Of a DNA stretch of 64,000 bases, positions 12,170-62,427 are shown piece by piece. Both the position numbers and the translations under genes were made by a program. How positions within the stretch are numbered: position 1 is the stretch's first letter; every line of letters begins with the position of its first letter. The DNA comes from a virus, in the IMG/VR virus record IMGVR_UViG_3300046804_004208, positions 39,862 through 103,861 of that record, one strand, 5' to 3'. The notes below the pieces were generated by a model. That model made no database searches and was not told the origin of the DNA. It worked only from the letters and a program-made list of their open reading frames with translations.

Positions 12170-13200
12170 AGGTAGCAATTATTACAGATACTCATTATGG
12201 GGCAAAAAAAGGTTCAAAGTATCTTCACGACCATTTTGAACTTTTTTATAAAAATGTATTTTTTCCTTCCCTAGGAGAATACAATGTAGAAACAGTTATT
12301 CATATGGGAGATGCTTTTGATAGTCGTAAATCAATTGATTATCAAAGTCTTGAGTGGTCAAAGCGTGTGGTATTTGACCCACTTAAAAAATATGATGTTC
12401 ATATGATTATTGGTAATCACGATACATATTACAAAAATACCAATACAGTAAATTCTCCAGAACTTCTTCTTCAAACTTATTCTAACATTAAGACTTATAG
12501 TAAACCGACAGAAGTTAATATTGGTGGATTGAATATTTTATTTTTACCCTGGATTAATCAAGAAAATGAAGAACTCACTTTTAAACTTATTAAAAACACA
12601 ACTTGCAAGTGTGCGATGGGGCACCTTGAGTGTCAAGGATTTAGAGTTAATCGACAACTCATCATGGAACATGGTTTGGAGAGCCAATTATTTGAGAAGT
12701 TCGAACGTGTCTTCTCGGGACATTATCACACTAGATCGTCTAATGGAACAATCTATTATCTAGGAAATCCATATGAGATGTATTGGACTGATGTGAATGA
12801 CACTCGTGGTTTTCATATCTTTGATACGGAAACATTGGAGCATACTCCAATCAACAATCCTTATAAATTATTCTATAACATTTACTATGAAGATACTCCA
12901 CATCAATTATTTGATGCGACAGAGTATAAAAATAAAATTGTCAAAGTGATTGTTCGTAAAAAATCTAAACCAAAAGATTTTGAAAAATTTATTGATAAAC
13001 TTTATAGTGTTGGAGTTCAAGAATTAAAAATTATTGAAAACTTTGAAATTCAAGAAAGTGAAGATTTTCAAGTAGATGAAGATGAAAACACTTTATCCGT
13101 ATTGAATCGTTATATAGATGATTCTGAATTTAATTGTGATAAAAATATCATAAAAACAATCATTCAAGATCTTTATCAACAAGCGTCACAAGTAGAGTAA
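12166..13200 (+). CDS. 47: Recombination nuclease subunit gp47 (Mre11/SbcD-like)
   Basis: 344 aa (T4 339). Metallophosphoesterase with motifs DTHYG at residues 8-12, HMGDAFDSR, IGNHDTYY and SGHYHTR. Together with gp46 it resects DNA ends for recombination-dependent replication and host DNA degradation. gp47 and gp46 are separated by one small gene. Confidence 0.96.
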   Translation: MKVAIITDTHYGAKKGSKYLHDHFELFYKNVFFPSLGEYNVETVIHMGDAFDSRKSIDYQSLEWSKRVVFDPLKKYDVHMIIGNHDTYYKNTNTVNSPELLLQTYSNIKTYSKPTEVNIGGLNILFLPWINQENEELTFKLIKNTTCKCAMGHLECQGFRVNRQLIMEHGLESQLFEKFERVFSGHYHTRSSNGTIYYLGNPYEMYWTDVNDTRGFHIFDTETLEHTPINNPYKLFYNIYYEDTPHQLFDATEYKNKIVKVIVRKKSKPKDFEKFIDKLYSVGVQELKIIENFEIQESEDFQVDEDENTLSVLNRYIDDSEFNCDKNIIKTIIQDLYQQASQVE

Positions 13201-46522: not shown

Positions 46523-47254
46523 ATGTATTATGTTTATGAATTAATAGACCCGAGAGTTAATATTCCTTTTTATGTTGGAAAGGGAAAAAATGATAGGGTC
46601 TATTTTCATTTGTCTGAAAAATCAAGAGCAAAGAGTGATAATGAAAGAAAATTTAATAAAATACAAAAAATAAGAGAATGTGGATATGAACCTGAGATTA
46701 AAATAGTAAAATATTTTGATAATGAAGATGATGCTTATTTTTATGAGGAATTATTGATACAAAAATATGGAAGAATACGATATGATGAAAATGGTATATT
46801 AACAAATATATGTGAAAGTTCTAGACCTCCCAAATTAAAAGGAAGAACTTATAAAGAAATATATGGTGATAACTGGGAAGAGCAAATAGAAAAAAGAAGA
46901 AAGGTGCAAATAGAAGCAGGTGGGTATGGACCTAAAAAACATAGTGAAGAAACTAAAAAGAAAATAAGCGAAAAAGTTTCTGGTAAAAATAATCCAAGTT
47001 ATGGTATTCCTTGTAGTGAAGAAAGAAAGAGAAAAATAAGTGAAAGGGCAAAGGAAAGATTTGCCGAAGGTTTTAAATCTTCATCATCAGTAACTTATCT
47101 TTTGATAAGTCCTTTCGGAGAAAAATTTGAGGTATTTGGAGAACTTAAAAAATTTTGTAAGTCTCAAAATATTTCTTATGCTACTATGCACGCAGCAATA
47201 CTTTATGAAAGAAAAGGACCAAGAAGAAATGGATGGTCAATTGAGAAAATTTAG
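46523..47254 (+). CDS. GIY-YIG homing endonuclease after nrdB
   Basis: 243 aa. GIY-YIG core MYYVYELIDPRVNIPFYVGKG (residues 2-21), catalytic Glu region DDAYFYEELLIQKYG, NUMOD3-like repeats (KKHSEETKKKISEKVSGKN, CSEERKRKISERAKE) and a C-terminal DNA-binding domain LLISPFGEKFEVFGELKKFC. Same build as the gene at 31528. Probably targets nrdB or its neighbour. Possesses both an early and a late promoter. Confidence 0.92.
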   Translation: MYYVYELIDPRVNIPFYVGKGKNDRVYFHLSEKSRAKSDNERKFNKIQKIRECGYEPEIKIVKYFDNEDDAYFYEELLIQKYGRIRYDENGILTNICESSRPPKLKGRTYKEIYGDNWEEQIEKRRKVQIEAGGYGPKKHSEETKKKISEKVSGKNNPSYGIPCSEERKRKISERAKERFAEGFKSSSSVTYLLISPFGEKFEVFGELKKFCKSQNISYATMHAAILYERKGPRRNGWSIEKI

Positions 47255-50156: not shown

Positions 50157-50197
50157 GATAAATAATAACTCATAAAGATTCTATAATATGAGTTATG
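50157..50197 (+). promoter_or_regulatory. Late promoter plus start-codon hairpin
   Basis: GATAAATA at 50157-50164. ATAACTCATA (50165-50174) pairs perfectly with TATGAGTTAT (50187-50196), whose bases 50188-50190 are the ATG of the downstream gene. Late transcripts starting near 50170 would lack half of the left arm. Confidence 0.75.
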
Positions 50198-50649
50198 AAA
50201 ACCCTTGGAGATTCAATGGGGAAATTTTTGAGTCTTCTGATATTCAAGATAATTTTGGTTTTGTATACCTTATATCTTGTAGTAAGAATAATCGTAAATA
50301 TTGGGGTAGGAAATATTTCTGGTCTTACCGCACACCAAAGGGCAAATCTAGAAGAGTTAAACAAGAGTCTGATTGGAAGCAGTACTACGGATCTTGTCCA
50401 GAACTCAAAGAAGATATAAAAAAATATGGAAAAGAATGTTTTCAAAGGCAAATAATAAGTCTTCATAAGTCAAAAGGTGACTGTAATTACGAAGAAACAA
50501 AGCAGCTTTTCCTAAATAATGTATTGAAAGAGTCTCTTGACGATGGAACGCCAGCGTACTACAATAGCAATATTCTAGGACGCTACATGCGAAAAGATTA
50601 TGGTAACTTTGGAACAAACTCTTCGCCAAACACACGATTGGGCAATTGA
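50188..50649 (+). CDS. GIY-YIG superfamily nuclease
   Basis: 153 aa. FGFVYLISCSKNNRKYWGRK (residues 23-42) is a GIY-YIG core with the second motif degenerated to YWG. SDWKQYYGSCPELKEDIKKY and NYEETKQLFLNNVL carry the Arg/Glu region. Lacks the NUMOD tail of the other two. Could be a Seg-like homing endonuclease or a host-DNA nicking enzyme. Confidence 0.78.
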   Translation: MSYENPWRFNGEIFESSDIQDNFGFVYLISCSKNNRKYWGRKYFWSYRTPKGKSRRVKQESDWKQYYGSCPELKEDIKKYGKECFQRQIISLHKSKGDCNYEETKQLFLNNVLKESLDDGTPAYYNSNILGRYMRKDYGNFGTNSSPNTRLGN

Positions 50650-50797
50650 TCGTATTCATACTCTATGTGAAAAAAATATTGATAATGCCCATGCGATTCA
50701 ATCTGAATTTAGTGAGTGGTTGAATCCGGATATTTTAAATCATGATATTTTTTCATTAGAGTACATAGGAGAAGAAGATGACATTAGATCTTCATAA
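50600..50797 (+). CDS. 65-aa small protein overlapping the GIY-YIG gene end
   Basis: MVTLEQTLRQTHDWAIDRIH then TLCEKNIDNAHAIQSEFSEW; acidic, helical. It overlaps the previous gene by 50 bp and the next by 20 bp. Kept because of consistent amphipathic helices and its place in the chain of overlapping genes. Confidence 0.5.
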   Translation: MVTLEQTLRQTHDWAIDRIHTLCEKNIDNAHAIQSEFSEWLNPDILNHDIFSLEYIGEEDDIRSS

Positions 50798-51449
50798 CTT
50801 TTTTAAGTATTATGATGATAAGAACCCTAACCATGTTGCTGCGGTTCAATGGTTAGAGGATAATCTTCCAGAAAAATTTTTAGATGATGCACAATCAGAT
50901 TGGGTAAGTATTTTTAGAACTGCTCCGCCAACTCCTGCAGTTCTGGATGTTCCATACTTCAATCAGGTAGACAACTATAGAGATGCACATAGAACTTGCA
51001 ACTCTTCATCGTGTGCTATGTGCCTTGCTTTCCTCAAGCCAGGAAGCATTAAAGGTGATGATGAATACGTTAAGAAAGTATTTGCAATTGGTGACACAAC
51101 TGACCATGCCGTACAGACAAAAGTTCTTGCAGGTTATGGAGTTAAGTCACACTTTAGTTACAATCTTTCTTTTGCTGATATTGATAAGAGCCTTGATAGA
51201 GGCAAACCTGTTGTTATTGGTATTCTGCACAGGGGTTCTTTATCTGCACCTACTGGTGGGCATATGTGTGTTGTAATTGGTAAAACTCCTGATGGTAAGG
51301 GGTATTATGTAAATGATCCTTATGGTTCTTTAAACGATAATTATTCAGGTCCTGTGACTAACGGTAAGAAGACCATCTACACAAAAGCAGTTCTTAAGCA
51401 CCGTTGGTGTCCAGGAGGCAATGATGGGTGGGGAAGGATCTTCGACTAA
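50778..51449 (+). CDS. C39-like cysteine peptidase with DLHNFFK module
   Basis: 223 aa. Residues 4-42 form the module LDLHNFFKYYDDKNPNHVAA-VQWLEDNLP, duplicated in the next protein. After a Pro-rich linker a papain-like C39_2 domain: DVPYFNQVDN (oxyanion Gln 63), RTCNSSSCAM (catalytic Cys 74 or 79), GGHMCVVIGK (His 162) and YVNDPYG (Asp 180). Beside the lysozyme, it may cleave peptidoglycan peptides or other envelope substrates. No signal peptide. Confidence 0.82.
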   Translation: MTLDLHNFFKYYDDKNPNHVAAVQWLEDNLPEKFLDDAQSDWVSIFRTAPPTPAVLDVPYFNQVDNYRDAHRTCNSSSCAMCLAFLKPGSIKGDDEYVKKVFAIGDTTDHAVQTKVLAGYGVKSHFSYNLSFADIDKSLDRGKPVVIGILHRGSLSAPTGGHMCVVIGKTPDGKGYYVNDPYGSLNDNYSGPVTNGKKTIYTKAVLKHRWCPGGNDGWGRIFD

Positions 51450-51561
51450 TTTTAAAGCTAAGATGCTTAAGGTAATTAAGGATCTTACAAACAACGGAAA
51501 ACATAAGGAAGCAAACGAACTCTATCAAAAGTATTTCGGAGGAAACGATGGCAAGAGTTGA
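51421..51561 (+). CDS. 46-aa helical mini-protein
   Basis: MMGGEGSSTNFKAKMLKVIK then DLTNNGKHKEANELYQKYFG. It overlaps the peptidase end and the next gene's start. Its 3' end carries the GGAGG RBS of the following ORF, so it could be a translational relay or simply chance. Confidence 0.4.
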   Translation: MMGGEGSSTNFKAKMLKVIKDLTNNGKHKEANELYQKYFGGNDGKS

Positions 51562-51769
51562 TCTACATAACTTTTTTAAATTTTATGATGATAGAAACCC
51601 AAGTCATATCAAGGCAGTTCAATGGTTAGAAGACAATCTTCCTAATGATTATCTTGAAGATAATGCTGATTGGGCAGAAATTTATAGAGGTAAGGGTGGT
51701 GGATCATCTGCTGCTTCTGCTCCTGCTGGAGATGTATGTCCACATTGTGGTAAATCTCTGGGAAAGTAA
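51548..51769 (+). CDS. DLHNFFK module protein, 0-frame part of a frameshifted lysozyme
   Basis: 73 aa. VDLHNFFKFYDDRNPSHIKA, VQWLEDNLPNDYLEDNADW, a GGGSSAASAPAG linker and a zinc-ribbon-like end VCPHCGKSLGK. The module equals that of the upstream peptidase. The strong RBS ggagg is 7 nt before the ATG. It stops at TAA immediately after GGGAAAG. The -1 frame then continues the same Ser/Ala/Pro linker into a lysozyme domain, so this ORF is probably the N-terminus of a 244-aa fusion. Confidence 0.75.
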   Translation: MARVDLHNFFKFYDDRNPSHIKAVQWLEDNLPNDYLEDNADWAEIYRGKGGGSSAASAPAGDVCPHCGKSLGK

Positions 51770-51803
51770 GTAGCGGCAGTGGTGCTTCTGCTCCTGCTGT
51801 CGC
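51760..51803 (+). promoter_or_regulatory. Candidate programmed -1 frameshift signal
   Basis: Slippery heptamer G-GGA-AAG at 51760-51766 in the 0 frame, followed by TAA. After a 6-nt spacer, GCGGCAG (51773-51779) pairs with CTGTCGC (51797-51803), 7 bp with one G-U, extendable by two wobbles and one G-C. The same heptamer drives the lambda gpG-T frameshift. Confidence 0.7.
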
Positions 51804-51825
51804 AAGTGGTGCTGACGATGTTCCA

Positions 51826-52281
51826 ATGATGGGCATTAAGTTAATCAAGGAATTTGAAGGATGTCATTTATCGGCATATCCTGATCCTTTAACTGGTGGT
51901 CTTCCAATCACGATTGGTTGGGGTTCTACTAGAAATAAGAATGGGCAACCATTCCAAATGGGTGATAAGATTACCCAGCAAGAAGCAGATGAACTGCTAA
52001 TCAGTCAGTGCAAGAATCAATTCCTTCCTGCACTACGTAAAATCCCACATTGGAACGAGATGTCAGATGGAAAAAGAGGAGCTTTGCTCAGCTTTGCTTA
52101 TAATCTTGGTGCCGGTTTTTACGGTGGTGATAACTTTAATACTATTACTAAACGCTTGAAGAATAAAGAATGGGACTTAGTTCCCGATGCTTTATACCTA
52201 TACAGAAATCCTGGTTCAAATGTAGAAGCAGGACTTGCACGTAGGAGAAAAGCAGAAGGTGAAGCTTGGAAAAAAGGTTAA
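51826..52281 (+). CDS. GH24 (T4-type) lysozyme domain
   Basis: 151 aa from ATG 51826, but the frame is open from 51754 and probably entered by -1 frameshifting. The catalytic triad of T4 lysozyme is present with the same spacing: E11 in FEGCHLSAYPD, D20, and Thr in PITIGWGST. C-terminal RRRKAEGEAWKKG. No RBS in front of the ATG. Muramidase for lysis or entry. Confidence 0.88.
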   Translation: MMGIKLIKEFEGCHLSAYPDPLTGGLPITIGWGSTRNKNGQPFQMGDKITQQEADELLISQCKNQFLPALRKIPHWNEMSDGKRGALLSFAYNLGAGFYGGDNFNTITKRLKNKEWDLVPDALYLYRNPGSNVEAGLARRRKAEGEAWKKG

Positions 52282-62356: not shown

Positions 62357-62427
62357 GCGAATGTGGTGTAGCGGTAACATCCCATCCTTCCAAGTTGGTG
62401 TCACGGGTTCGATCCCCGTCATTCGCT
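62357..62427 (+). tRNA. tRNA-Gly(UCC)
   Basis: Acceptor GCGAATG/CATTCGC, anticodon loop CTTCCAA (UCC), T-arm ACGGG-TTCGATC-CCCGT, discriminator T. One T-T mismatch in the anticodon stem. Confidence 0.9.

Follow-up and report, generated by a model that had tools for sequence, protein, structure and literature searches.

A probable programmed −1 ribosomal frameshift conserved in an endolysin gene of freshwater cyanophages

Endolysins made as two polypeptides have been described mainly in phages of Gram-positive hosts, where they rely on internal starts. In Lys170, LysIME-EF1, CTP1L and LysP7951, one endolysin gene yields a full-length enzyme and a shorter non-catalytic domain, and several of these internal-start endolysins heteromultimerise (1:3, 1:5), with both forms being needed for lysis (PMC9430671, PMC7098653, PMC4777826). 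In the LysIME-EF1/CTP1L type, free binding domains form the mixed multimers with the enzyme, again at 1:3 or 1:5 (PMC7098653, PMC9430671). As for frameshift signals, the heptamer G_GGA_AAG is strongly shift-prone in E. coli and is used by the g-t genes of tailed viruses (PMC5009743). A lysin from 1994 that extends over two overlapping genes is cited as one of the phage genes with a known frameshift (PMC10885494); going by that citation, frameshifted lysins may already have a precedent, which would limit the novelty of the present case. Our literature search found no report of a GH24 or cyanophage endolysin built through a programmed −1 frameshift. Both this type of signal and the lysozyme family are already known, and the use of −1 frameshifting to join an N-terminal module to a catalytic domain in an endolysin may be new for cyanophages and for GH24, with the older lysin as a possible precedent.

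Here we describe a locus at which the sequences point, with high confidence, to a conserved programmed −1 ribosomal frameshift in the endolysin gene of a freshwater cyanophage family. The window, meaning the whole stretch of 64,000 nucleotides that was analysed, comes from a virus record of 103,861 bases; its content is that of a T4-like cyanophage, its best matches are Kyanoviridae phages of Synechococcus, and nrdB lies near the endolysin gene. Like Lys170, LysIME-EF1, CTP1L and LysP7951, this single gene is predicted to encode both an enzyme form and a domain-only form, in this case by frameshifting. The short form of the internal-start endolysins is C-terminal, whereas the short form here is N-terminal and would arise by 0-frame termination at the −1 site. 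An in-frame internal start with a ribosome-binding site is absent, and the short form shares both its N-terminus and its start with the long one. The hosts also differ, as the internal-start enzymes belong to phages of Gram-positive hosts and the present gene to cyanophages; phages of Gram-negative cyanobacteria have apparently arrived at a two-product endolysin output through recoding. The lambda gpG-gpGT type offers another comparison, since it too combines a −1 shift on a heptamer with short and long forms that have a common N-terminus. However, the product here is an endolysin and not a tail-assembly chaperone, and the family keeps both a hairpin in phase and a stop codon immediately behind the heptamer. 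In its X_XXY_YYZ slip site, its 5-9 nt spacer with a downstream stem-loop, and the stop right after the slip site that gives a short product, the locus resembles retroviral and dnaX-type cassettes; unlike dnaX, the product is a wall hydrolase.

The 0-frame ORF (51548-51769; the features of the gene described below all lie on the + strand) encodes 73 residues, divided by sequence and an alignment of 26 homologues into an N-terminal module, a linker of Ser, Ala, Pro and Gly, and a CPHCGKSLGK tail followed by TAA. A GGAGG ribosome-binding site (51538-51542) stands 5 nt before its ATG at 51548, and a GGAG-type Shine-Dalgarno sequence precedes the module ATG in the homologues listed too. The module (DLHNFFKFYDD...DWAEIYRG; 51548-51691) was delimited by alignment, by phrog_10051 and phrog_3617 matches and by a low-confidence AF2 model, and is predicted to be helical, with helices at residues 6-16, 18-30 and 40-47 (pLDDT 56 for the 73-aa product). 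This model and that of an in-frame homologue (pLDDT 40) are both too weak for use; Foldseek comparison of such low-confidence models with the PDB gave no match with E below 5, and a profile search of the PDB with the module gave no convincing match. The tail (51737-51766), recognised by homologue alignment and codon comparison, carries a conserved Cys-Pro-His-Cys, and across the alignment the amino acids of CPHCGK[S/P]LGK are invariant except for S/P while the codons drift. A similar tail, DVCPHCGK-stop, ends a probably unrelated phage ORF (L197, about 12900-13140) that resembles the N-terminal domain of EF-Ts.

The gene upstream (50778-51449) joins the same N-terminal module to a C39-like peptidase (PF13529, E=1.4e-14; phrog_10051 endolysin, 1.6e-76) and is the second wall hydrolase of the pair; its copy of the module is a repeat with 64% identity. 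The phrog_3617, phrog_7 and phrog_10051 matches of the gene under study are endolysin-type proteins, and nothing in its PHROG matches corresponds to a tail-assembly chaperone of the gpG-T type. As the C39 peptidase has the module too, and as a single profile, PHROG 3617, combines module, peptidase and lysozyme within one protein, we take the module to be a lysis module by association. The last stretch of the C39 peptidase gene also holds the start of a 46-aa ORF (window 51421-51561), which runs on into the beginning of the module; in several homologues a part of this ORF (..ELYQKYFGG..) is found again ahead of the module.

A sequence-only reading of this DNA had singled out the 73-codon ORF for its ending, CTG-GGA-AAG-TAA, which places GGGAAAG directly before the stop. 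Both observations are exact: the heptamer G_GGA_AAG (51760-51766) lies in the 0-frame register X_XXY_YYZ, from which GGA AAG could re-pair to GGG AAA, and TAA (51767-51769; TAA or TAG in homologues) follows at once. The same reading had the −1 frame continuing through a linker into a GH24 lysozyme, and we see that this frame is open from 51754 to 52281, reading ...GK-VSSGSGASAPAVASGADDVPMMGIKLIKEFEG.... Its coding segment from GTA 51766 (51766-52281) comprises the linker VSSGSGASAPAVASGADDVP and the lysozyme (PF00959, Phage_lysozyme; E=2.9e-22), which scores 79.7 bits against a cut-off of 22.3 and covers positions 1-125 of the 125-position profile, i.e. a full-length domain. The catalytic domain itself (51826-52281) was placed by PF00959 and by solved GH24 relatives; KLIKEFEG is conserved and the catalytic Glu is present. 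Joined to residues 1-73, the −1 segment gives a predicted fusion of 244 aa, and the predicted translations of 73 and 244 aa agree with the lengths proposed earlier. Annotation pipelines are likely to render this gene as a small hypothetical protein and a start-truncated lysozyme. Upstream of the heptamer, the −1 frame is closed by TAA at 51751-51753, which together with the 0-frame stop confines the shift to 51754-51766. In 15/27 listed homologues, the window included, a stop in the −1 frame ends 6 nt short of the heptamer, so that an upstream −1-frame start makes no contribution there and the shift must occur within the roughly 13 nt that hold the heptamer.

Viral contigs were searched for CPHCGKxxGK followed by a TRR stop, with no requirement for GGGAAAG. 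This returned at least 37 contigs with at least 27 distinct sequences, window included, and all 37 contigs listed have the module, GGGAAAG directly before TAA or TAG, and a lysozyme in the −1 frame. A second ORF that overlaps the first at the site in the −1 phase is therefore conserved in the homologues, as the sequence-only reading would predict. In the reverse search, which asked for GGGAAAGTAR and a lysozyme start 28-58 nt on without requiring CPHC, 31 of the 32 contigs listed belong to the same family; the remaining one, L203, is unrelated. Judging from these sequences, heptamer, stop and CPHC tail belong together as one cassette. The shift homologues listed are all metagenomic contigs, drawn from many metagenomes. 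Nucleotide identity of the lysozyme among the 27 distinct sequences listed goes down to 74%, with third-position identity at a median of 62% and a minimum of 46%; these distinct homologues are related to each other, and counts over them are not independent.

GGGAAAG occurs four times on the + strand and twice on the − strand of the 64-kb window, and hence the heptamer alone is little proof. What does lie beyond chance is its retention in 27/27 listed distinct homologues, together with the exact −1 phase and a hairpin in fixed register. Among the distinct sequences listed, the slip codons do not vary (GGA 27/27, AAG 27/27), and the preceding Leu is CTG in 22 and TTG in 5, each providing the needed G, while Leu codons ending in G make up only 19% in this gene set. 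For each of the invariant residues nearby (C, P, H, C and G), 2-4 synonymous codons are in use. If L-G-K is drawn randomly by local codon usage, the heptamer arises in about 2% of draws, a figure that should not be multiplied across homologues because the sequences are related. These codon data argue that purifying selection acts on the slip codons themselves, over and above the residues they encode. An out-of-family control is given by a Phycisphaerae MAG gene, unrelated and the sole match in the genome contigs listed, which ends CPHCGKELGK* using the non-slippery CTG GGC AAG TAG. An AAAAAAG variant of the cassette was not found in viral contigs, an Rfam search gave no matching element, and no SD-like stimulator of the dnaX type is conserved 8-15 nt upstream in the aligned homologues. 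Such an upstream stimulator is optional, and many known frameshift sites do without one. A phage-encoded tRNA-Gly(UCC) gene is present at window 62357-62427; by standard wobble, this tRNA can read both GGA and GGG, and it could in principle serve the slip codon GGA and then shift its pairing to GGG.

Downstream of the heptamer, the expected 7-bp stem (51773-51779 with 51797-51803) is present after a spacer of exactly 6 nt and extends to 10 bp, with arms at 51773-51782 and 51794-51803 that are supported by pairing across homologues. The stem-loop thus lies within the canonical 5-9 nt 3' of a −1 slip site. A stem in the 6-nt register is possible in 27/27 listed homologues, with 7 pairs complete in every one and a total length of 7-13 bp; some stems extend 1-3 pairs nearer to the heptamer. 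All 9/9 arm haplotypes are fully paired, for example GCGGCAG/CTGTCGC, GGGCAGT/ACTGCCC, GGACAGC/GCTGTCC and GGGGTAG/CTGCCCC, and when 3' arms were shuffled among haplotypes full pairing was reached in only 2/5000 trials. Within the GGGCAGC subgroup, two pairs show double compensatory changes (GC to AU, CG to UA); 10/500 shuffles gave covariation as high, and sliding the partner abolishes pairing. Compared with codon-shuffled sequences that encode the same −1 peptide, the hairpin is also more stable (mean z −2.9), with L009, L020, L107 and L114 not individually significant (p 0.10-0.20). Slippage of the polymerase during transcription would be another route to the fused frame, and no specific point speaks for it. 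The homopolymer runs of GGGAAAG do not exceed 3, a length that by common experience is too short for polymerase slippage, and the hairpin 6 nt downstream fits slippage of the ribosome, which makes a transcriptional origin hardly credible.

We also weighed the possibility that the lysozyme is a separate protein, started independently or by coupled re-initiation at the ATG ATG at 51826. The intercistronic distance is short (56 nt), and 25/27 listed shift homologues retain an in-frame ATG ahead of the lysozyme, so that some internal initiation may occur in these. However, the same methionines are common in in-frame fusions, where initiation does not need them, and the absence of a ribosome-binding site noticed at the outset holds: no Shine-Dalgarno-like sequence exists in the 16 nt upstream of 51826, nor is there one in most homologues. 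In L102, the −1 frame offers no ATG, GTG or TTG from the 0-frame stop as far as the catalytic Glu, and re-initiation could therefore not make its lysozyme; L086 has only TTGs, which lie inside the lysozyme domain. Production from the internal ATG only, which the sequence-only reading had named as fatal to its proposal, is consequently untenable for the family as a whole. A separate start would also leave the fixed GGA-AAG, the phased and covarying hairpin and the open −1 linker unexplained, and we regard it as very unlikely.

The other two findings that could have undone the proposal were a single-base error at the junction and homologues with one continuous frame. The latter do exist, with at least 78 distinct complete relatives encoding module, linker and lysozyme in a single frame, but the 78 listed have no heptamer, no CPHCGKxLGK-stop cassette and no CPHC in the linker. 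Their existence, along with the apparently broken lysozyme of L111, could be read as a sign that module and lysozyme truly share one uninterrupted frame in this gene, which an assembly or sequencing indel makes look broken. Against this, the −1 arrangement recurs in the 37 contigs listed, which come from many datasets; the heptamer at which it occurs never differs, and the CPHCGK[S/P]LGK-stop cassette always accompanies it. This recurrence excludes a single-base error as the source and leaves an indel with next to no plausibility; the in-frame relatives, being without heptamer and cassette, are an alternative architecture and not the sign of a broken gene. In L111 (9163-9700), which has the shift form, the −1 lysozyme ends early, 302 nt past the heptamer, and the remaining lysozyme lies in another frame, as would result from a broken copy or an assembly indel.

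The nearest cultured relatives, the Synechococcus phages DSL-LC02 and DSL-LC03, have the in-frame form. They and PHROG 3617 (a module-C39-lysozyme fusion) share with the window the same module, the same lysozyme and the same adjacency of module and C39 peptidase, but use a single continuous frame, with neither CPHCGKxLGK-stop nor GGGAAAG. Seven one-frame relatives (L149, L150, L151, L152, L153, L165 and L184) have a knuckle in the in-frame linker (CPKCGKG, CSKCGKG or CSKCGRG) and no slip site. In a tree of the lysozyme domain, shift and in-frame forms are interleaved; the label needs 10 changes, at least 7 of which are forced by well-supported branches. The interleaving indicates repeated reshuffling of cassette and catalytic domain, whether through recombination or through recurrent gain and loss; the module alone, at 144 nt, is too short for its tree to tell these two apart. 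Closely similar lysozymes in one-frame and two-frame forms, switched several times, provide a built-in evolutionary control, and make the question of why a phage rations its lysozyme through a frameshift directly testable. A split lysozyme of another kind is seen in Synechococcus phage S-CRM01 (L201, NC_015569.1, about 1830-1900), annotated as endolysin g113 and hypothetical g112, which overlap at TAATG inside the catalytic domain, the second part being in another frame. No canonical heptamer is seen in this split gene, and an error, decay or other recoding are all possible.

Under the preferred reading, a programmed ribosomal frameshift, most ribosomes would stay in the 0 frame, terminate just past GGA-AAG and set free the 73-aa module with its CPHCGK tail. 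In some ribosomes, the tandem Gly and Lys tRNAs would slip on the heptamer from GGA-AAG to GGG-AAA, stimulated by the hairpin 6 nt downstream, and continue in the −1 frame to give the 244-aa module-lysozyme. We infer that slippage takes place in the host, where the 73-aa product is probably made by the majority of ribosomes and the fusion by a minority.

By analogy with the two-polypeptide endolysins, our best guess at the purpose is a supply of free module in excess, either as partner subunits for the enzyme-bearing form or as its competitor. An internal start cannot yield a free module that is N-terminal, and termination at the frameshift site would do the same job. Tentatively, and with rather less than even confidence, we suggest that the −1 frameshift mirrors the internal-start trick, such that free and enzyme-bearing modules might assemble into a multi-subunit lysis enzyme, perhaps together with the module of the C39 peptidase and possibly with their CPHC tails bridged by zinc. 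The chief competing view of the purpose accepts the frameshift as real and holds that it only lowers or times lysozyme output, the 73-aa product being a by-product. Lysozyme dose is plausibly critical for the timing of lysis, and sister phages do without a free module; on the other hand, a weaker ribosome-binding site would be a simpler means, and the tail is kept as protein while its codons drift. This last pattern suggests that the peptide matters, although the fused product has the tail too. Dose control of this kind is in our judgement less likely than not, and is the most serious alternative for the purpose.

Elsewhere in the window, two ORFs carry GIY-YIG-like motifs (46523-47254, YVYELID...YVGKG; 50188-50649, FVYLISC...YWGRK). 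They adjoin nrdB and the lysis genes, and may be homing endonucleases.
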